Shown piece by piece: positions 6,450-33,781 of a stretch of 36,303 nt of DNA (positions are counted from its first letter, which is position 1; every line of letters begins with the position of its first letter). Origin of the DNA: Gemmatimonadota bacterium (lineage in GTDB: Bacteria; Gemmatimonadota; Gemmatimonadetes; Gemmatimonadales; GWC2-71-9); contig QHUY01000065.1 in assembly GCA_003223415.1 (NCBI GenBank), forward strand, positions 10,805 through 47,107, in the 5' to 3' direction. The notes under the pieces were generated by a model. The model was not told the origin of the DNA. It searched no databases and saw nothing but the letters and a program-made list of their open reading frames with translations. Position numbers and translations under genes: made by a program.

Positions 6450-7720
6450 TGCACTGTAATGGTGCCGGTCATCCCTGACGCGAAGTGGACGTCGCACTGG
6501 TAGGTATAAGACCCCGCCGTCGTGAACGTGAAAGAGAACGTCGTCCCGTTCACAGCTGTCGTGTTACCGGAGTTGAATGAGGCTGGCCCACTTGTCGAGT
6601 GGACGTTGTGTGCATTGCACGGATTGCAGTTCCAGGTCCACGTGACGGTGGTCCCTGACGCGATCGTCAGGCTACTTGGGCTGAAGGAGTTGTTGACTAA
6701 TGACACGGCCGCCGCGGGTGGGGTGGCGGTCGCCGTGAACACCACCGGCGAGCCGGTGAGACCGTTCACCCTGGCGGTGTCGGTGTTCGTGCCGGCGCTC
6801 GGCCCAAGCGTGCGCATTACCGAGGCCACGCCGTTGCCCCCCGTGACCGGTGACGTGGACGAAACCGTGCCGCCGCCGTCGCCTACCGCCCACGTCACGG
6901 TGACCCCGGACTTGGCGTTGCCATGCCCGTCGCTCACGAGCACGCTCTGGGGGGTGGCGAGAGCGGTGTTGACCGAGCCCGTCTGGTTGTTGCCGCCGTT
7001 CAGAGCCATTTGGGTCGCGTTGCCGGCGGTTGCGGTCGCGCCCAAAGTGATCGGGGAGCCCACGAGCCCTGAGACCGTGGCTACCGTGCTTTGCGACCCT
7101 GCGGTCGCGCCCAGCGTGCGGGAGACCGATCCGATCCCACCCGCACCAGTCGTGGTCGCCGCCTGACCCACCGAGCCTCCGCCGGTCACCGACCAGTTCA
7201 CACTCACCCCGGCGACGGGCACGTTCTTGTAGTCGCGCACGATCACGGACATCGGCGTCGCCAGGGTCGCGAGTACGGTGTCGCTCTGACCGCCGCCACC
7301 GTTCGCCTGGATCGATGTCGCGCCCTGGATCTGGGAGAAGCTGGTGAAGGTGACGGGGGAGCCGGATAGGCCGTTGTGGGTGGCCGTGGCGCCCTGGGTG
7401 CCGGCGTTAGGGCCCAGGGTGAGAGTCCCGGTGGAGAGCCCGCTCGCGTCCGTCAGGCCGGAGGAGGCAATGGAGCCGCCGCCTGCGACGACGGCCCAGG
7501 AGACGGTGGCGTTGGCGACCGGACTGCCATTCGCGTCTTTCACCACCACGGAGAACGGGGTCAGGGTGACCCCCCCCGCGCCGACCTGGCTGTCTCCGCT
7601 CACCTTGGCCATCTGGGTCGGCGTGGGCCCGGGTGGGGTGCCTGAATTCCCGCCGCCACATGCCACACCTGCCAGGGTCGCTGACACCCCGAGAACGGCG
7701 ATCCAACGAATGTGGTGCAT
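6446..7720 (-). CDS. Lipoprotein with three Ig-like repeats and C-terminal plastocyanin-type cupredoxin
   Basis: A 424-residue protein beginning with a lipobox signal (LAGVACGGG). Three repeats of about 95 residues follow (near 38-130, 135-225 and 230-330). Each has a PxSVxVxDxxGxPVAGxxVxW start and a LGPxAGTxxxTAxVxGLxGSPVxF end, as in bacterial Big_1/invasin-type folds. Residues about 340-424 are a cupredoxin: His371, Cys409, His412 and Met417 match the plastocyanin order, with C-x2-H-x4-M spacing. A CNPC motif (Cys365, Cys368) three residues before the first copper His is unusual. The start is ATG 7720 with GAGGTG upstream. The layout suggests a surface-displayed electron carrier or copper-binding protein on Ig-like stalks. 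Confidence 0.85.
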   Translation of the reverse strand: MHHIRWIAVLGVSATLAGVACGGGNSGTPPGPTPTQMAKVSGDSQVGAGGVTLTPFSVVVKDANGSPVANATVSWAVVAGGGSIASSGLTDASGLSTGTLTLGPNAGTQGATATHNGLSGSPVTFTSFSQIQGATSIQANGGGGQSDTVLATLATPMSVIVRDYKNVPVAGVSVNWSVTGGGSVGQAATTTGAGGIGSVSRTLGATAGSQSTVATVSGLVGSPITLGATATAGNATQMALNGGNNQTGSVNTALATPQSVLVSDGHGNAKSGVTVTWAVGDGGGTVSSTSPVTGGNGVASVMRTLGPSAGTNTDTARVNGLTGSPVVFTATATPPAAAVSLVNNSFSPSSLTIASGTTVTWTWNCNPCNAHNVHSTSGPASFNSGNTTAVNGTTFSFTFTTAGSYTYQCDVHFASGMTGTITVQ

Positions 7721-7907
7721 GGCACACCTCGCGCTAGGGAACGGGGATAGGGGGAAGCCGCATCTTTCCTAAGGTACGCCTCCGTGGTACTTGACGGTTC
7801 GCGGGTAGTTCCCCAAGGTTGTGCGCGCCCATTTCTCTGCAGGAACTGAACGACGTGGCGGAGGCTCGCGCCCGTAGCGGGGTCGCGGCGGCACGGAGGG
7901 TGGGGAA

Positions 7908-9038
7908 TTGGGTGCACTGGAAGGGTTTCGCGAGCAGGCGGCGGAGATCCTGCGGCAGGCGAGCATCGCGCTCGGCGGCCGCACCGTGACCCTGTACGAA
8001 GTATCGCCGGAGCCGTCCCTCACCCCGGTGATCTCGAGCGAGCCCCACCCGGGACACCACGCCACGAAGGTCGATCTCGACGCCACCCTCAATCGCTGGG
8101 GCATCCCGATCCGCTTGGGGAGCTTCTGGCTCGGTCTCCGGGCCGACCCGGAAGGCCACTGGGTGTTCGCGCCGGTGCGCACCCGGGCGCCAGCTCCGCC
8201 GCCCGGCGGGGTGGAGCGGCGCGGCCGGGAGCGGCTCACGCTCGAGCTCGCCGGCCTGTGCGTCGGGCTCGTCGACCGTCGTGAGTCTCCCGCGGCGCCG
8301 TTCACCGGCGGCGGACCCGATCCGCTCCACGAGCTGGTCATGTTGCCGGGTGTCATCGCCCACGAGGCGCGCAATCCCCTCAGCGCGGCCCGCGCCGGAC
8401 TGGAGCTCGTCGTCGAGTCTGTGGGCAAAATGTCCAACATCGGGGCCGACCAGCGGGTCGAGCTGCTGGGCGAGCTCGCGGACGTGGGGGAAGCGGTGGA
8501 CCGCGCGCTCGACTTCCTGCGCGCCGTCAGTGATCGAGTCCGCGGTGCGAGCCAGGGCCGGAGCCGCTTCGATGCGGTCCGCGCCGTCCGCTCCTGCGTG
8601 GAGCTGGAGCGCCGCCTGCTGGGGAATCGCGGCATCGGCCTCGAGCTCGAGGCGACAATGGAGCCTACCTTCCTGGACGGGGACCCCAACCTCCTCTACG
8701 AGCTGCTGCTCAACCTGATCCGCAACGCCTCGGACGCGTCCGCCAGCCGCCGCACGCCCGTGCGGGTGGATCTCGCGCGGGACGGGGAGGCGCTGCGCCT
8801 CACGGTGCGGGACGAAGGGCCGGGGATTCCCGTGCACCTGCATCAGCGGATCTTCGAGTCGGGCTTCACGACCAAGGTTGAGGGCTCGGGGACTGGGCTC
8901 GCGGTGGTGCGCACCGTCGCGGAAAAGGAATTCGGCGGCGCGGTGCGCGTCGAATCCCAGCCTGGGTCGGGCGCGGCGTTCATCATCACCCTGCCGGCTC
9001 CGGCGCAGCGGGGTGCCCGCGCCACAGATGCGGCGTAG
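7908..9038 (+). CDS. Orphan sensor histidine kinase
   Basis: A soluble 376-residue kinase. The first 130 residues carry no recognised domain and may be a degenerate GAF-like sensor. The dimerisation/phosphoacceptor box is VIAHEARNPLSAARAGLELV (His152). The ATPase core shows ELLLNLIRNASDAS (N box), VRDEGPGIP (G1), IFESGFTTK (F box) and GSGTGLAVVRTV (G2). All catalytic motifs are present, so it should phosphorylate a response regulator. No regulator gene is adjacent; the only one in the window is at 31396. The start is TTG 7908 behind GGAGGGTGGGG. No membrane helix was seen, so it probably senses a cytoplasmic signal. Confidence 0.85.
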   Translation: MGALEGFREQAAEILRQASIALGGRTVTLYEVSPEPSLTPVISSEPHPGHHATKVDLDATLNRWGIPIRLGSFWLGLRADPEGHWVFAPVRTRAPAPPPGGVERRGRERLTLELAGLCVGLVDRRESPAAPFTGGGPDPLHELVMLPGVIAHEARNPLSAARAGLELVVESVGKMSNIGADQRVELLGELADVGEAVDRALDFLRAVSDRVRGASQGRSRFDAVRAVRSCVELERRLLGNRGIGLELEATMEPTFLDGDPNLLYELLLNLIRNASDASASRRTPVRVDLARDGEALRLTVRDEGPGIPVHLHQRIFESGFTTKVEGSGTGLAVVRTVAEKEFGGAVRVESQPGSGAAFIITLPAPAQRGARATDAA

Positions 9039-11335: not shown

Positions 11336-12964
11336 ATGAACACCATCCCCAAGATCCCGACCCCTGTCAATGAGCCCATCCTGTCCTACGTCCCCGGTAG
11401 CGCCGAACGGGCTGACCTGAAGCGTGCGCTCAAGGAGATGTCGGGGCAGCCCGTCGAGATCCCGATCGTGATCGGGGGGCGGGAGATCCGCACCGGCAGG
11501 ACCGCCTCCGTCGCAATGCCTCATTGTCACCAGCACATCCTCGCGACCGTGCATCAGGCGGGCCCGGCGGAGATTGAGGCGGCGATCGCGGCGGCGCGCG
11601 AGGCTTGGCGGGACTGGTCGGCATGGCCGTTCGAGCGCCGGGCCGCCGTCTTCCTCAAGGCCGCCGACCTGCTGGCGACGCGGTTGCGCGCGGTGGTGAA
11701 CGCGGCCACGATGCTGGGCCAGTCCAAGACGGCTCACCAGGCGGAGATCGACGCGGCGTGCGAGCTGGTCGATTTCTGGCGCTTCAACGTCCACTACGCC
11801 GGGCGCATCCTCGCCGAGCAGCCGCTCTCCGCCCCGGGCGCCTGGAACCAGCTGGACCACCGCCCGCTCGAAGGGTTCGTGTACGCCATCACGCCATTCA
11901 ATTTCACCTCGATCGGCGGCAATCTGCCGACCGCGCCTGCGATCATGGGGTGCACCGTCGTGTGGAAACCGGCGGCGACCGCGGTCTACTCCAACTATTA
12001 CGTGCTGAAGGTGCTCGAGGCCGCGGGCCTGCCGCCCGGGGTCGTGAACTTCGTTCCCGGCCCGTCGGCACAGATCAGCGAGCGCCTCCTGGCCGACCGC
12101 CACCTGGGCGGCATTCACTTCACCGGCTCGACGGACGTGTTCCAGTCTCTCTGGAAGCAGGTGGCGCAGAACCTGACGGGCTACGCGGACTACCCGCGAC
12201 TGGTTGGGGAGACGGGCGGCAAGGACTTCATCGTCGCGCACCTGAGCGCCGACGCCGACGCGCTCGCCACCGCGCTCGTCCGCGGCGCCTACGAGTACCA
12301 GGGCCAGAAGTGCAGCGCCGCGTCGCGCGCCTACGTGCCGGACACCCTGTGGCCGAAGGTGCGCGACCGCGTGCTGGGGATGCTGCGGGAAATCCGTGTG
12401 GGCGACCCGTGCGACTTCCGGAACTTCATGGGCGCGGTGATCGACCGGAAGGCGTTCGACAAGATCAAGGGTTACGTCGAGGGGGCGAAGGCGGACCCCA
12501 AGGTCAAGATCCTGTTCGGCGGCGGGTGCAACGACACGGACGGTTATTTCGTGCAGCCCACGCTGATCCAGGTGGAGGATCCGACCTACCGGACGATGTG
12601 CGAGGAGATTTTCGGCCCGGTGCTGTCGCTCTACGTCTATCCCGCCAAGCAGTGGGCCGAGACGCTGCGGCTCGTGGATCGCACGTCGCCCTACGCGCTC
12701 ACCGGCGCGGTGTTCGCGCAGGACGCGCACGCGGTGGCCGAGGCGCACGCGGCGCTGCGCTACGCGGCGGGCAACTTCTACGTGAATGACAAGCCGACCG
12801 GCGCCGTGGTAGGCCAGCAGCCGTTCGGCGGCGCGCGCGCCAGCGGCACCAATGACAAGGCCGGCTCGCTCGTCAACCTGCTGCGCTGGGTGTCGCCGCG
12901 CACGGTGAAGGAGACGTTCACCCCGCCGCGGGACTTCACCTATCCGTTCATGGCCGAGCAGTGA
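11336..12964 (+). CDS. pruA: 1-pyrroline-5-carboxylate (glutamate semialdehyde) dehydrogenase
   Basis: A 542-residue NAD-dependent aldehyde dehydrogenase that oxidises glutamate-5-semialdehyde to glutamate, the second step of proline catabolism. The N-terminus (NEPILSYVPGSAERADLKRA, I-GG-EIRTG) and length match the stand-alone PruA/RocA group. Key elements are FNFTSIGGNLPTAPAIMG, the Rossmann-binding FTGSTDVF, the Glu in LVGETGGKDFIV, the catalytic Cys in YEYQGQKCSAASR, and CEEIFGPVLSLYVY. No proline dehydrogenase gene is in the window. The stop overlaps the GTG of the HmuY-like gene (GTGA), so the two are translationally coupled. Confidence 0.93.
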   Translation: MNTIPKIPTPVNEPILSYVPGSAERADLKRALKEMSGQPVEIPIVIGGREIRTGRTASVAMPHCHQHILATVHQAGPAEIEAAIAAAREAWRDWSAWPFERRAAVFLKAADLLATRLRAVVNAATMLGQSKTAHQAEIDAACELVDFWRFNVHYAGRILAEQPLSAPGAWNQLDHRPLEGFVYAITPFNFTSIGGNLPTAPAIMGCTVVWKPAATAVYSNYYVLKVLEAAGLPPGVVNFVPGPSAQISERLLADRHLGGIHFTGSTDVFQSLWKQVAQNLTGYADYPRLVGETGGKDFIVAHLSADADALATALVRGAYEYQGQKCSAASRAYVPDTLWPKVRDRVLGMLREIRVGDPCDFRNFMGAVIDRKAFDKIKGYVEGAKADPKVKILFGGGCNDTDGYFVQPTLIQVEDPTYRTMCEEIFGPVLSLYVYPAKQWAETLRLVDRTSPYALTGAVFAQDAHAVAEAHAALRYAAGNFYVNDKPTGAVVGQQPFGGARASGTNDKAGSLVNLLRWVSPRTVKETFTPPRDFTYPFMAEQ

Positions 12965-13581
12965 ACGCCCGGCGGGGCGGTGCCCGCCCGCCGCTGCTGG
13001 TGCTCCTGCTCGGCGCCGCGTTCCTGCTGCTGGTCGCGGCCCTGCTCATCGGCTCGTTCACCAGACCGGAGTTCCCCCCCTACCGACTCTCGGTGCCGCT
13101 TCCGACTCGCGTGGGGGACTCCCTCGTCGGGCCGGCCACCTACACCCTCGACGCCTCCGCGACCGACCGCTGGCGCACGTTCGCCTTCGCGCGCAACGCG
13201 GTGGTGGAGCCACCGGGAGCGTGGGACATCGCCTTCCGGCGCTTTCATCTCATTGCGGCTGACGGGGCGGGGATCCTGGACCTGGGGCCAGTCCCATTCG
13301 ATTCGGTGCGCGAGCTTCCCCCCCCCGCCGCGGGCTACCGCGGCAACACGGTGGCAGGCGAGGACACCACCAATCCGGGAGTCGGCAAGTGGTACCAGTA
13401 CAGCATGCTCAGCCACCTGCTCACCTCGAAGCACCACGTGTACGGCGTGCGCACCGCGGACGGGCACTACGCCAAGCTCGAGCTGCTCGCCTACTATTGC
13501 GCCGACGCCGGCACCGCCTGTATCACCTTTCGGTACGTCTACCAAGGGGGCGGAGACCGCAGCCGCCGGGTGGCGCGCTGA
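12961..13581 (+). CDS. Membrane-anchored HmuY-like protein
   Basis: A 206-residue protein with a single N-terminal membrane anchor (about residues 10-33, PPLLVLLLGAAFLLLVAALL), then an extracytoplasmic beta domain. The features TYTLDASATDRWRTFAF, AWDIAFRRFHLIAADGAG, GKWYQYSMLSHLLTSKHHVY and ITFRYVYQ follow the HmuY family pattern, which in Porphyromonas binds haem. Whether this one binds haem is not shown; possible axial His residues lie in KHHVYGVRTADGHY. The GTG start overlaps the pruA stop. A 7-C and a 9-C run (near 13075 and 13318) encode prolines in the mature domain. A strong terminator follows. Confidence 0.7.
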   Translation: MNARRGGARPPLLVLLLGAAFLLLVAALLIGSFTRPEFPPYRLSVPLPTRVGDSLVGPATYTLDASATDRWRTFAFARNAVVEPPGAWDIAFRRFHLIAADGAGILDLGPVPFDSVRELPPPAAGYRGNTVAGEDTTNPGVGKWYQYSMLSHLLTSKHHVYGVRTADGHYAKLELLAYYCADAGTACITFRYVYQGGGDRSRRVAR

Positions 13582-15802: not shown

Positions 15803-16381
15803 GTGACCGCCCCTCCCAAGCTCAGGTCATACGTGCAGGCGCCTGAAGAACCGCCGGACGCCACCGTCGTCGCGCGCGTGCTGAGCGGCGACGCAGAGGC
15901 GTTCGGGATCCTCATCCGCCGCTACGAGCCCGCGCTGCATCGCTTCGCCACGCGGATGCTCGGGAGCGCCGACGCCGCCGCCGACGCGGTGGCCGAAGGC
16001 TTGGTGCGAGCGTACCGGCACCTGCGGAGTTGCCGGGAGCCCGCCCGGTTTCGGACGTGGGTGTATCGCATCGTGGCGAACCGGTGCAAGAGCCATCTGG
16101 CCCGGCGACCGTCGAGCGACCTGTCCCTCGACGACCTGCCGCCGCTGCCCGATCCCGCGGACAACGCGACGGCGCTGGAGCGGGCCGAGCAGCTGATGCT
16201 GGTGACGCGAGCGCTGGGAGGGCTCTCCGCGGAGAAGCGAGAGGCGTTCGTGTTGAAGCACGTCGAGGGTCTGAGTTATGAGGAGATGGCCGCCGTCACC
16301 GGCGCTCGGATCCCGACGTTGAAGATGCGCGTCCACCGCGCGCGCGAAGCGCTGCTGGACACGCTGAAGGAGTACCAATGA
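15803..16381 (+). CDS. ECF-type RNA polymerase sigma factor
   Basis: A 192-residue sigma-70 family factor. Region 2 covers about residues 20-85 (GDAEAFGILIRRYEPALHRF, then FRTWVYRIVANRCKSHL). Region 4 is LSAEKREAFVLKHVEGLSYEEMAAVTGA, with a helix-turn-helix ending TLKMRVHRAREAL. It should direct polymerase to promoters under control of the coupled downstream membrane protein. GTG 15803 is chosen; a GTG at 15833 would also keep region 2. Its TGA overlaps the ATG of the next gene, as usual for sigma/anti-sigma pairs. Confidence 0.88.
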   Translation: MTAPPKLRSYVQAPEEPPDATVVARVLSGDAEAFGILIRRYEPALHRFATRMLGSADAAADAVAEGLVRAYRHLRSCREPARFRTWVYRIVANRCKSHLARRPSSDLSLDDLPPLPDPADNATALERAEQLMLVTRALGGLSAEKREAFVLKHVEGLSYEEMAAVTGARIPTLKMRVHRAREALLDTLKEYQ

Positions 16382-16989
16382 GTCTCATCGATCCCCGGAT
16401 TCACCAGGTGCTGGACGGCGAGCTGTCGCGCCAGTCGCTACCGTCCGAGCTGCGGCCCGCGCTGGAGCGGCTCGAGGCAGCCGCCGGAGTCTTGCGCTCG
16501 GCGATGGCCCGGCGCAGCGTGGCCGCCTGGGTGCTGGCCGAGATCCGCCGGCCGCGCCCGGGGCCCATGGCCCGGCTAGCGCGCTGGCTCATCGAGCGCC
16601 ACGCCATCACCGTCAGCCTGCGCCCGACCTGGAGCTTTGCGGTCGCCGTACTGGTCGCGGCGGTCGTGCTGGTGCCCTCGCACGGCACCGAGGGCCCGAT
16701 CCTCTCGGCTCAGGAGGGCATCGCCCAGTTCGTGGGGCGCTTCCCCGGCGCGCGCTCCGTCGAGGTCGTCGGGTCGTTTACGGACTGGCGCTCAGGGGCC
16801 ATTCCCCTCCAGGACGACGACCACGACGGCGTGTGGCAGACGGAGGTCGTCCTCCCCGCGGGCGAGCACGAGTACATGTTCGTGGTGGATGGGGAGCGGT
16901 GGGTGGCCGATCCGTTGGCGGGCCGCTACGTGGACGACGGGTTCGGCCGCCAGAACGCCATCATCATCGTCCGGCCGGGCGACCGGTGA
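16378..16989 (+). CDS. Probable anti-sigma factor with extracytoplasmic CBM48-like domain
   Basis: A 203-residue protein. The N-terminal 70 residues are helical and probably hold the sigma factor, though no HxxxCxxC zinc motif is present. A single membrane helix (about 84-100, WSFAVAVLVAAVVLVP) follows. The outer part (about 115-203) reads SVEVVGSFTDWRSGAIPLQ, GVWQTEVVLPAGEHEYMFVV and DGERWVADPLAG, the pattern of CBM48/AMPK-beta glycogen-binding domains. The ATGA overlap with the ECF gene and GTGA overlap with the next gene support one operon. A carbohydrate-sensing anti-sigma is the natural reading, but sugar binding is inferred. Confidence 0.78.
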   Translation: MSLIDPRIHQVLDGELSRQSLPSELRPALERLEAAAGVLRSAMARRSVAAWVLAEIRRPRPGPMARLARWLIERHAITVSLRPTWSFAVAVLVAAVVLVPSHGTEGPILSAQEGIAQFVGRFPGARSVEVVGSFTDWRSGAIPLQDDDHDGVWQTEVVLPAGEHEYMFVVDGERWVADPLAGRYVDDGFGRQNAIIIVRPGDR

Positions 16990-17657
16990 GGCCGAGCCTG
17001 GTGCTGCTACTCGCCGCGGCGGTCGCCCCGCTCGCCGCGCAATCGATGCGGGCGCGGCTCGCCGGCCGGGTCCCGGCCGCCGCGGTCGCGCCGGTCGACT
17101 CGATCGTGCGCGTGGCCGAGGTCGACGGCCTGCCGACGGATCCGCTCGTGAGAAAGGCGCTGGAGGGCGGCGCCAAGCAAGCCTCCCCCGACCAGATTGT
17201 CGCCGCCGTGGCGCAGGTCGCGAGCGAGTTGCGCGAGGCGCGCGCGCTGCTCCTGCGCGGCGGGGGCGGCGGACCGGTACCGCCCGCCGAGGTCATGGCC
17301 GTTTCCGCCGCGCTGGTGCGGGGGCTCCCGGTCCCGCTGGTGCAGCGGCTCGTCGCCGTTCTCCCCGGCGAGCCGACCGGCCCCGCGTTGCACGCGGTCG
17401 CCGACATGGTCGGACACGGGTTCGCGCAGGACTCGGCTGTGGGCTTGGTGGTGGAGGCAGTGGGGCAGGGCCTGCGCGGGCTGCGCCTGCTCGACGTGGC
17501 CACGTCTGCCGTGCACGAGCTCCAGCGCGGCCGCACCCACGCCCTGGCGCTTGCGGAAGTGCGACGGCGGCTGCCCGACGTGCCGACGCCTCCCACCCCG
17601 CCGCCGGCCGCCGTCACCCGCGCGCGCCGGCCCGTGGCGGATACCACCCAGCCCTAG
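16986..17657 (+). CDS. Exported helical protein of sigma-factor operon
   Basis: An unrecognised 223-residue protein with a signal peptide (MRPSLVLLLAAAVAPLAAQ). The mature part is alanine-rich and helical, with a glycine run (LLRGGGGGPVPP) near residue 95 and a proline-rich tail (PDVPTPPTPPPAAV). The phrase ADMVGHGFAQDSAVGLVVEA suggests a packed helical repeat. The GTG start overlaps the stop of the CBM48 anti-sigma gene, so it is the third gene of the operon. It may help the signalling pair or be its target, but nothing in the sequence shows which. Confidence 0.65.
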   Translation: MRPSLVLLLAAAVAPLAAQSMRARLAGRVPAAAVAPVDSIVRVAEVDGLPTDPLVRKALEGGAKQASPDQIVAAVAQVASELREARALLLRGGGGGPVPPAEVMAVSAALVRGLPVPLVQRLVAVLPGEPTGPALHAVADMVGHGFAQDSAVGLVVEAVGQGLRGLRLLDVATSAVHELQRGRTHALALAEVRRRLPDVPTPPTPPPAAVTRARRPVADTTQP

Positions 17658-31395: not shown

Positions 31396-31764
31396 ATGCC
31401 GGACCAGCCGCCGCGACGGAAAGTACTCTTCGTCGAAGACGAGCAGGCGCTCGTGGCGTCCTACGAGCGCTACTTCGACACCCGCTACGAGATGGCGTTC
31501 GCGCGCACCGGGGCCGAGGCGCTGAAGCTACTCGTTGCCTTCCACCCCGACGTGCTCGTGCTCGACCTCCGGCTCCCGGACACCGACGGGATCGCGTTGC
31601 TGCAGCAGATCCGGCAGGGCCACCGCGACCTGCCCGTCGTGGTGACGACCGCTTACGTCAGCATGGAGCCGCTCATGAGCGTCCTGGATCTCGGGCATAG
31701 CGGCTATCTGGTCAAGCCGTTCGACCTGAGCGAGCTCGGCGCGCGGATCGATGCTGTCGGCTGA
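31396..31764 (+). CDS. Single-domain response regulator
   Basis: A 122-residue receiver domain with no output domain. The acidic pair is in VLFVEDEQAL, the phosphoacceptor is Asp57 in DVLVLDLRLPDTDG, with Thr84 (VVTTAY) and Lys107 (GYLVKPFD) complete. It probably works as a phosphorelay or protein-binding switch. Its last 14 bases overlap the ccmA start, so it is translated together with the cytochrome c maturation genes. The kinase is not adjacent; the orphan kinase at 7908 is the only one in the window. Confidence 0.88.
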   Translation: MPDQPPRRKVLFVEDEQALVASYERYFDTRYEMAFARTGAEALKLLVAFHPDVLVLDLRLPDTDGIALLQQIRQGHRDLPVVVTTAYVSMEPLMSVLDLGHSGYLVKPFDLSELGARIDAVG

Positions 31765-32437
31765 AGGCCTGACCCACGCCTTCGGCTCCCCCCCTGTCCG
31801 CGCCCTCGACGGCATCTCCTTCCGGCTCGAGTCCGGTCGCACCCTCGCCGTCTTCGGCCCGAACGGGGCCGGGAAGACCACCCTCCTGAAGGTGCTCGCC
31901 GGTCTGATCCGCCCCCAGGCCGGGCACGCTCACGTGCAGGGCGGTCGCCGCGCCATCGGCTGGATTGGCCACCAGTCGCACCTGTACTCCCATCTCACCG
32001 TGCGCGAGAACCTGCTCTTCTGGGCGTCGCTGTACGGTGTGCCGGAGCCGCAGCGCGGCGCCCGCGCCGACGACCTGATGCAGCGGCTCGGCCTCGGCGA
32101 CCGCGCGACACAGCCAGTGGCCGCCCTGTCGCGTGGCTTGGTGCAGCGCGCCGCCATCGCGCGCGCCCTAGTGCACGAGCCGGGGGTGCTGCTGCTCGAC
32201 GAGCCGTTCACCGGGCTCGACCTCGCCGCGGCGGGCGAGTTTCGCCGGCTGATCGCCGAGCTCGCGCGCGGGGGCCGCGCCGTCGTGCTCGCGACCCACA
32301 ACGTCGACGAGGGGGTGGAGCTCGCAACCGAGATCGCCTTCCTGCACCGCGGCCGCTTCGTGGAGGTCGCGCCGCGCGGCGCGCGCGGGCCGGCCGAGAT
32401 CGCCGCAGCCTATCGTCGGGCGGTGGCCGGTGGCTGA
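31751..32437 (+). CDS. ccmA: Haem exporter ATP-binding protein CcmA
   Basis: A 228-residue ABC ATPase of the cytochrome c maturation system I. Walker A is GPNGAGKT (36-43), the signature region is ALSRGLVQRAAIARAL, Walker B is GVLLLDEPFTGLDLAA, and the switch His is in VVLATHNVDEG. CcmA with CcmB drives release of holo-CcmE from the CcmC complex in the inner membrane. The gene overlaps the response regulator by 14 bases and ccmB by 8, and shares their transcript. The identity relies on the ccmBCD neighbours, since the ATPase alone is generic. Confidence 0.92.
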   Translation: MLSAEGLTHAFGSPPVRALDGISFRLESGRTLAVFGPNGAGKTTLLKVLAGLIRPQAGHAHVQGGRRAIGWIGHQSHLYSHLTVRENLLFWASLYGVPEPQRGARADDLMQRLGLGDRATQPVAALSRGLVQRAAIARALVHEPGVLLLDEPFTGLDLAAAGEFRRLIAELARGGRAVVLATHNVDEGVELATEIAFLHRGRFVEVAPRGARGPAEIAAAYRRAVAGG

Positions 32438-33110
32438 GCTGCTGCGGCACGCGTGGGCCATCGCCCGTAAGGACCTGCTGCTCGAGTTCCGCACGCGCAC
32501 CGCGATCCTGTCCGCCGCGGTGTTCACAGCCCTGGTCCTCGTGGTCTTCAACTTCGGCCGCGATCCGACTGCCGTGCCCACACTGACGATCGCGCCCAGC
32601 ATCCTGTGGGTGACCTTCAGCTTCGCCGGCATGGTGGCGCTGAACCGCGCCTTTCAGCTCGAGCTCGAGAACCAGGCGCTCGACGGCCTACTACTGGCGC
32701 CGATGAGTCGGTACAGCCTCTACCTGGGCAAGCTGGCGGCGAACCTTGTCTTCGTCGCGGCGGTGGAGACGATCGGCCTATTCTTGTTCGCGCTGTTCTT
32801 CGACGTCCCGATCTGGCGCGTCCTGGAGCCGCTGGTCGGGGTGATCGCGCTGGCGACCGTGGGGTTCATCGCCGTGGGCACGCTGTTCAGCGCCATGGTG
32901 ATCCGAACGCGCTTCGCCGAGCTGATGCTGCCGGTGCTGCTCTTGCCGTTCCTGATCCCGCCGCTCGTGTGGGCGGTGCAGGCCACCGGCGCCCTGCTCG
33001 CCGCGCGTCCCTTGAGCGAGGTGACGGGGTCCCTTAAGTTGCTAGCGGCCTACGACATCGTCTTCGTGGCGCTGGCGACGTTCCTCTTTCCCGCGACGGT
33101 GGAGCAATGA
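32430..33110 (+). CDS. ccmB: Haem exporter membrane protein CcmB
   Basis: A 226-residue protein with six predicted membrane helices. Family features include HAWAIARKDLLLEFRTRTAI, FSFAGMVALNRAFQLELEN, LDGLLLAPMSRYSLYLGKLA and PVLLLPFLIPPLVWAVQATG. It is the membrane partner of CcmA. GTG 32430 starts inside the end of ccmA, and its stop overlaps the ccmC ATG (ATGA). Length matches known CcmB proteins. Confidence 0.93.
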   Translation: MAELLRHAWAIARKDLLLEFRTRTAILSAAVFTALVLVVFNFGRDPTAVPTLTIAPSILWVTFSFAGMVALNRAFQLELENQALDGLLLAPMSRYSLYLGKLAANLVFVAAVETIGLFLFALFFDVPIWRVLEPLVGVIALATVGFIAVGTLFSAMVIRTRFAELMLPVLLLPFLIPPLVWAVQATGALLAARPLSEVTGSLKLLAAYDIVFVALATFLFPATVEQ

Positions 33111-33781
33111 CCCTCGCGCAGCGCGGGCGGCGGGTAACCCTGGTCGGCCTAGCCCTGCTGGCGGGCGTATACGTGCGCGCCCTCGTGTACACTCCGGTGG
33201 AGCTGCACCAGGGCCCGGCCCAAAAAATCTTCTACGTGCACGTGCCGGCCGCCTGGTCCGCGATGCTCGCCATGGGTCTGGTCGGCCTGACCAGTATCCT
33301 CTACCTGTTGGTCAAGGACCCGCGCTACGACCGCTTCGCCGCGGCGAGCGCCGAAGTCGGCACCGCGTTCTCCCTTGTGATGCTCACGACCGGCCCGATC
33401 TGGGCGAAGCCGATCTGGGGCACCTGGTGGACCTGGGATGCCCGGCTGACCCTGACCCTCTTCCTGTTCTTCATCTTCCTCGGGTACCTGCTGCTGCGGG
33501 GTGCCGTGGGGGAGGCGGGGCTGCGGGCCCGGTACTCGGCCGTGCTCGGCATCTGCGGACTGGTGCTGCTGCCTTTCATTCATCTCAGCGTCTACCTGTT
33601 CCGCACGCTGCACCCACAACCGATCGTGCTGAAGCCGAGCGCGCCGTCGCTCCCCGGCTCCATGCTAGCGACGCTGCTGCTCTCGTTCGGCGTGTTCACC
33701 GTACTCTACCTGGGGTTCGTGATGCAGCGCTACGCCATCGGGGATGGGGGGGGCGGGGGGGGGGACGCCGGCAGTGCCTGA
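33107..33781 (+). CDS. ccmC: Haem-handling protein CcmC
   Basis: A 224-residue six-helix membrane protein that loads haem onto CcmE. It has the tryptophan-rich WGTWWTWD motif (104-111) and two haem-coordinating His candidates, His45 in FYVHVPAAW and His159 in PFIHLSVYLFRTLHP. The C-terminal tail is glycine-rich (GDGGGGGGDAGS), created by G8 and G10 tracts at 33746-33764 just before the ccmD start. The stop lies inside ccmD by eight bases. Apart from the tail, length and motifs are normal. Confidence 0.95.
   Translation: MTLAQRGRRVTLVGLALLAGVYVRALVYTPVELHQGPAQKIFYVHVPAAWSAMLAMGLVGLTSILYLLVKDPRYDRFAAASAEVGTAFSLVMLTTGPIWAKPIWGTWWTWDARLTLTLFLFFIFLGYLLLRGAVGEAGLRARYSAVLGICGLVLLPFIHLSVYLFRTLHPQPIVLKPSAPSLPGSMLATLLLSFGVFTVLYLGFVMQRYAIGDGGGGGGDAGSA
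33746..33764. repeat. G8-C-G10 tract at ccmC 3' end
   Basis: Two G runs split by one C, ten bases before the ccmD GTG. They encode the glycine tail of CcmC and may affect translation of ccmD. Confidence 0.9.

Follow-up and report, generated by a model that had tools for sequence, protein, structure and literature searches.

A CBM48 domain on the membrane anti-sigma-like protein of an ECF sigma factor operon from Gemmatimonadota and several further phyla

Three overlapping genes on the forward strand of the window (i.e. the whole stretch of 36,303 nucleotides that was analysed), between 15.8 and 17.66 kb, encode an ECF sigma factor, a 203-amino-acid membrane protein and a 223-amino-acid exported protein. 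That this trio is a true ECF/anti-sigma system, with CBM48 as its input domain, is almost certain. A probability of about 0.5 is given to the reading that it forms an envelope-sensing ECF switch whose CBM48 domain reads a glycan-type ligand, which need not be an alpha-glucan. What was computed here comprises the domains of the proteins and their predicted topology, the conserved occurrence of the trio, the clustering of its sigma factors on a tree and the promoter motif. The module is widespread and apparently undescribed, as no account of an anti-sigma factor with CBM48 was found in the open-access literature searched.

Gene organization

The source is a metagenome-assembled genome (G000) of the Gemmatimonadota, described as a soil bacterium. 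The trio is flanked by a gene with DUF255/thioredoxin domains and by argJ. Translational coupling is visible as an ATGA overlap between the sigma and anti-sigma genes (16378-16381) and a GTGA overlap between the anti-sigma and third genes (16986-16989). An earlier note on this DNA had proposed coupled genes with a third exported protein, and both the overlaps and the conservation of the trio across phyla uphold this proposal. Elsewhere in the window, a gene for an HmuY-domain protein (12961-13581, +; 3.4e-10) overlaps the 3' end of a gene for aldehyde dehydrogenase, and ABC-transporter ATPase, CcmB and cytochrome c assembly genes lie in a row (31751-33781, +) as a cytochrome c maturation cluster.

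Table 1. Features of the sigma operon in the window and short ORFs at related loci
Feature	Position	Strand	Detail
ECF-type promoter of the sigma gene	15803-15830	+	-35 GTGACC 15803-15808, 16-base spacer, -10 GGTCAT 15825-15830; kept in orthologues of the window's clade
ECF sigma factor with sigma2 and sigma4; 182 aa if started at the likely GTG 15833	15833-16381	+	Pfam; HMM core starts at 15833
Anti-sigma factor of 203 aa with one membrane pass and a CBM48 at the C-terminus	16378-16989	+	ATG overlaps sigma stop codon
Anti-sigma-like domain at the N-terminus (residues 6-72); four helices and no zinc ligands	16393-16593	+	AlphaFold helices 6-12, 26-44, 48-56 and 63-72
Transmembrane helix (residues 83-98)	16624-16671	+	Hydropathy 2.0; N-in/C-out by positive-inside rule
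Predicted periplasmic CBM48 domain (residues 113-198)	16714-16971	+	PF16561, phmmer, Foldseek, conservation
Third gene of the trio; all-alpha exported protein of 223 aa	16986-17657	+	Start overlaps anti-sigma stop codon
Small ORFs with sigma region 2 only, SusCD layout	L040 1728-2051 (+); L041 7477-7770 (-); L043; L044 3588-3932 (+); L046		L044: Pfam Sigma70_r2 3e-6

The sigma factor and its promoter

The sigma protein of the trio is as short as ECF factors (182-192 aa) and contains only sigma2 and sigma4. Pfam matches of the window protein (P0001) were to Sigma70_r2 (9e-18) and Sigma70_r4_2 (2.8e-13), and the best Pfam and NCBIfam matches were to ECF families. By the same two databases the pair is not a SigI-type sigma with an RsgI N-terminal domain.

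The start of the sigma gene had previously been placed at 15803, which is very probably wrong. The conserved promoter motif GTGACC/GGTCAT sits at 15803-15830, so that GTG 15803 is part of the -35 element and very probably not a start codon. In most orthologues of the window's clade a stop codon at the -35 element closes the sigma frame, which opens downstream. A two-block motif (i.e. GTGAC or GTTAC, 16-18 bases, GTC[T/A]) was present before 28 of the 94 sigma genes of the family as compared to 1.9% of random 320-base stretches, and the placing of GTGAC-N17-GGTC before its own operon would fit autoregulation. Candidate sigma start codons at L058, L066, L076 and other loci often lie only ~5 bases past the -10 element, a spacing that suggests leaderless sigma mRNAs.

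The anti-sigma protein carries a CBM48 domain

Pfam searches, an AlphaFold model and Foldseek comparisons all agree with the proposal of an ECF sigma factor next to an anti-sigma-like protein with a CBM48 domain. The membrane protein (P0002) matched AMPK1_CBM (PF16561; 4.6e-12, residues 124-200) with 46.4 bits against a cut-off of 26.8, and CBM_48 (PF02922; 2.1e-6) also above its curated cut-off. AMPK beta subunits were the nearest solved structures by sequence, with a phmmer match to AMPK beta2 at 1e-7. An AlphaFold2 model built with 55 sequences consisted of a helical N-domain, the membrane helix at 83-98 and a beta sandwich at 113-198 with pLDDT ~95. The best PDB matches of this model in Foldseek were AMPK-beta CBMs, the highest being 4yee_N (TMt of 0.84 on the module). 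The structure predicted is thus of the CBM48 type, as the earlier note had anticipated.

Three K/R residues precede the membrane helix and none follow it, and one such helix was present in 54 of 55 homologues. From this helix and its flanking charges, the CBM48 sandwich is predicted to lie outside the membrane, in line with the topology first suggested. The accompanying statement that CBM48 is normally cytoplasmic was too strong, as CBM48s also occur on secreted CE1 esterases (PMC8040265). No significant Pfam match was obtained for the N-terminal domain, and a zinc motif (HxxxCxxC) is present at this position in the homologue L096. With the domain otherwise unrecognised by Pfam, the anti-sigma label rests on its position, its helices and this single zinc-motif homologue. 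Four predicted helices and a coupled gene would be in keeping with a putative sigma-binding class I anti-sigma (ASDI) domain.

The putative sugar site was compared with that of AMPK, in which beta-cyclodextrin is contacted by W100, K126, W133, L146 and T148, residues whose mutation weakens the binding of glycogen (PMC2642990). The equivalents in P0002 are W137 (W100), M167 (K126), W175 (W133) and N193 (N150). Among 55 homologues, W137 was conserved in all, N193 in 45 and W175 in 43, whilst no homologue had kept the K126 equivalent (M in 28, A in 24). A sugar platform is hence plausible but altered. F134, Y166 and D178 may be conserved for the fold alone, and W137 perhaps likewise. The fold by itself is no proof of sugar binding, since the CBM48s of two secreted CE1 esterases bound none of the tested glycans (PMC8040265). 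From the residues kept, carbohydrate sensing by the anti-sigma CBM48 is plausible.

The third protein

AlphaFold predicted eleven helices for the third protein (pLDDT 92.8, pTM 0.82). No significant Pfam match was obtained for the window protein (P0003) and no consistent one among 37 members, nor was there a significant sequence match in the PDB or a fold match at E<=0.001. A motif, P-x-x-PL-x-x-K-x-x-EG-x-x-K, is shared by these proteins, with G61 and K64 invariant across phyla and P50 and E60 nearly so.

Distribution of the trio

The survey of relatives for the same trio proposed in the earlier note found it again in the same genome, in other Gemmatimonadota and in several further phyla. A second set lies on contig C243 of the same genome, its third gene being cut off by the contig end, and contig C157 encodes a barrel-like protein with a C-terminal CBM48 together with a truncated sigma gene. 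The nearest named relative is Gemmatimonadetes isolate AG13, with 66% identity in the anti-sigma protein. The order of sigma, anti-sigma and third gene was found in most of the relative loci fetched. Neither of the outcomes named beforehand as counting against the proposal, i.e. a structure unlike CBM48, or missing aromatic residues together with a missing conserved trio, was observed.

A scan of one genome per species across 84,980 species yielded 80 loci. An ECF sigma gene lay directly upstream of the CBM48 anti-sigma gene in 56 of these, and the third gene was detectable in 39 of the 56. The anti-sigma family was present in 95 of 150 Gemmatimonadota genomes (63% of those sampled). Hosts, named as in the database records and mostly metagenome-assembled genomes, comprise Gemmatimonadota, Nitrospira, Desulfobacterota (including two apparently cultured strains, Desulforhabdus sp. 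TSK at L100 and Pseudodesulfovibrio pelocollis at L107), Acidobacteria, Myxococcales, Thiobacillus and other Pseudomonadota, Bipolaricaulota, Lentisphaerae and a metagenome-assembled Clostridia genome. The named loci and those with G handles are partly the same contigs (e.g. L077 and L037), so that the two surveys overlap.

In an IQ-TREE phylogeny, 43 of 47 CBM48-linked sigma factors fell in one supported clade, which included none of 16 other ECF-like sigma factors of this genome. The label of CBM48 linkage needs two changes on this tree, and the CBM48-linked sigma factors may have a single origin.

Second CBM48 proteins and outer-membrane barrels

Many loci encode a second CBM48 protein, either as a barrel-CBM48 fusion or as a CBM48 lipoprotein beside a separate barrel. 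In Gemmatimonadota this protein is exported, 330-390 aa long and has its CBM48 at the C-terminus. The N-terminal part of the fusion exhibited beta-strand alternation (mean z of 2.6 against shuffles, as compared to -0.3 for a helical control), a pattern from which it is predicted to be an outer-membrane barrel. In Nitrospira, Thermodesulfovibrionales, Acidobacteria and others the CBM48 protein is small and in several cases has a lipobox-like signal peptide (judged by eye), and there is a separate exported barrel-like gene nearby (Phenol_MetA_deg in L103). Fusion in one phylum and occurrence as separate parts in others link the barrel with CBM48. No second CBM48 partner was found near the trio of the window's clade within the stretch examined. 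Directly before the sigma operon, the Nitrospira loci L103 and L118 have genes for a DUF5666-like lipoprotein, a RREDRR-type charged-repeat protein and a Phenol_MetA_deg-type barrel.

Neighbouring genes and the possible regulon

An alpha-glucan regulon was considered and rejected, as Pfam searches of 90 neighbouring ORFs at 26 non-Gemmatimonadota loci found no recurring glycoside hydrolase. An apparent GH57 gene lies next to one locus (L105), the set on C243 neighbours an amino-acid permease gene, and in one layout the genes next to the trio are SusC/SusD-like.

Target promoters had been expected upstream of carbohydrate genes; the promoter-linked genes encode surface lipoproteins and exported proteins instead. 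An opposite-strand copy of the promoter was present in 10 relatives, mostly facing a divergent gene, and in G030 this back-to-back pair constituted the only two sites of the searched pattern. The divergent genes encode DUF4382 lipoproteins (L050, L055, L057, L068 and L073), a DUF4397 protein (L066) and a putative barrel (L060). In L053 a serpin gene (7000-8232, +; 1.2e-110) diverges from the sigma operon, and the shared region has an ECF-type motif on both strands. With promoter copies facing divergent surface genes, the regulon would apparently be small, comprising the operon itself and nearby exported proteins.

A genome-wide search of four genomes of the window's clade produced 17 promoter sites as compared to 2 in reversed-pattern controls. 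Several sites were inside coding sequence and, besides the sigma gene, the only well-placed sites in this genome preceded L161 (a 108-aa exported protein) and L171 (a 291-aa exported, barrel-like protein); no firm wider regulon is therefore proposed. In eight other genomes the pattern was not above control everywhere, with as many control matches in G035 and G033.

Proposed mechanism and alternative explanations

In the mechanism that we favour, the helical N-domain of the anti-sigma protein would hold the sigma factor at the inner membrane and the periplasmic CBM48 would act as the input. Gain or loss of a ligand, most likely an envelope glycan or glycoconjugate, would alter the anti-sigma protein, either proteolytically or in its conformation, and so free the sigma factor. 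The exported helical protein may be a periplasmic partner or co-regulator, perhaps as RseB is for RseA. In many relatives, the second CBM48 on an outer-membrane barrel or lipoprotein could present the same ligand or compete for it. Once freed, the sigma factor would transcribe its own operon, with probable autoregulation, and a few exported or surface proteins. In its widest form, for which the odds fall somewhat short of even, the proposal is of a kind of transmembrane signalling that is new and found in several phyla. An envelope glycan would be read by the periplasmic CBM48 of an ECF anti-sigma protein, acting jointly with a helical periplasmic co-regulator whose fold is new and, in many hosts, with a further CBM48 held at the outer membrane.

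A credible if rather doubtful alternative is that the CBM48 is a protein-protein module, which binds the third protein, the co-encoded CBM48 barrel or lipoprotein, or both, and signals the progress of outer-membrane assembly or the state of surface lipoproteins. Co-encoded second CBM48 proteins and barrels, the loss of K126, the promoter-linked DUF4382 and DUF4397 proteins, serpin and putative barrel, the lack of recurring glycosidases nearby and the existence of CBM48s without measurable glycan binding (PMC8040265) are all consistent with such docking. It fits less well with the aromatic platform (i.e. W100 and W133) and N150, whose equivalents are largely kept across very divergent members, or with the window's clade, which has no CBM48 partner nearby.

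Sensing of a starch- or glycogen-type alpha-glucan at the envelope, with control of alpha-glucan use, was the reading of the earlier note and is now unlikely. The closest fold is indeed a glycogen-binding domain, that of AMPK, with the W100 and W133 equivalents kept, and the SusC/SusD-like layout and the apparent GH57 gene beside L105 would agree with it. However, the equivalent of K126, a residue whose mutation in AMPK lowers glycogen binding (PMC2642990), is never kept, alpha-glucan genes do not recur among the neighbours and a neighbour on C243 is a permease for amino acids.

Ig folds resembling CBM48 are common, and a fortuitous fusion in which the CBM48 is a mere structural spacer on an ECF/anti-sigma pair for an unrelated signal could be imagined, but this is very improbable given that the domain and its site residues are kept over many phyla and multiplied in co-encoded proteins.

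Relation to known systems

Bacteria monitor their envelope to a large extent through ECF switches, many of which have no assigned signal. Envelope sensing by the trio would come with an input domain that can be recognised, a conserved partner that has no fold match, a promoter motif and a wide spread that includes many little-studied soil and sediment phyla, making the signal of this ECF group directly testable with one soluble domain. It would also extend regulation by CBM48 from AMPK to bacterial transmembrane signalling. An ECF catalogue number for this group may already exist.

The glycogen-binding domain of AMPK-beta (PMC2642990) shares the fold, the W100, W133 and N150 equivalents and a regulatory instead of catalytic role, whereas the domain described here has K126 replaced, is predicted to be extracytoplasmic and is coupled to a sigma factor in place of a kinase. 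CBM48s of secreted CE1 esterases (PMC8040265) are likewise outside the cytoplasm but are attached to catalytic domains, had no measured glycan binding and are not regulatory. The anti-sigma systems of PMC7406223 have coupled genes, a helical N-domain with or without a zinc motif, one membrane helix and a variable sensory C-domain; they differ in that no CBM48 sensory domain was found on them in the literature searched, and in that the operon described here also encodes a third protein, for which no fold match was obtained. SigI/RsgI of cellulolytic clostridia (PMC6056542) resembles the trio in its operon of sigma and membrane anti-sigma genes, its extracytoplasmic CBMs (CBM3 among them) and its autoregulated sigma factor; in contrast, SigI is not an ECF factor, the anti-sigma domain and CBM families are others, the hosts are Gram-positive and the targets include glycosidases. 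SigI/RsgI with its other CBMs is the nearest functional parallel, with a different type of sigma factor. To our knowledge, it has no third helical exported protein.

SusCD-linked ECF/FecR systems occur in Bacteroidetes, and the layout with SusC/SusD-like genes recalls them. The anti-sigma protein differs in having CBM48 instead of a FecR domain, and no signalling domain was found by Pfam in the neighbouring SusC homologue. At the loci of this layout the GTGAC motif is absent and TTGCC-N17-TAGCAT was read by eye in its place, perhaps a promoter of the housekeeping type. These loci also have an ORF of ~97-114 aa that resembles sigma region 2 only (Table 1), flanked on one side by the divergent sigma operon and on the other by the barrel-CBM48 gene.
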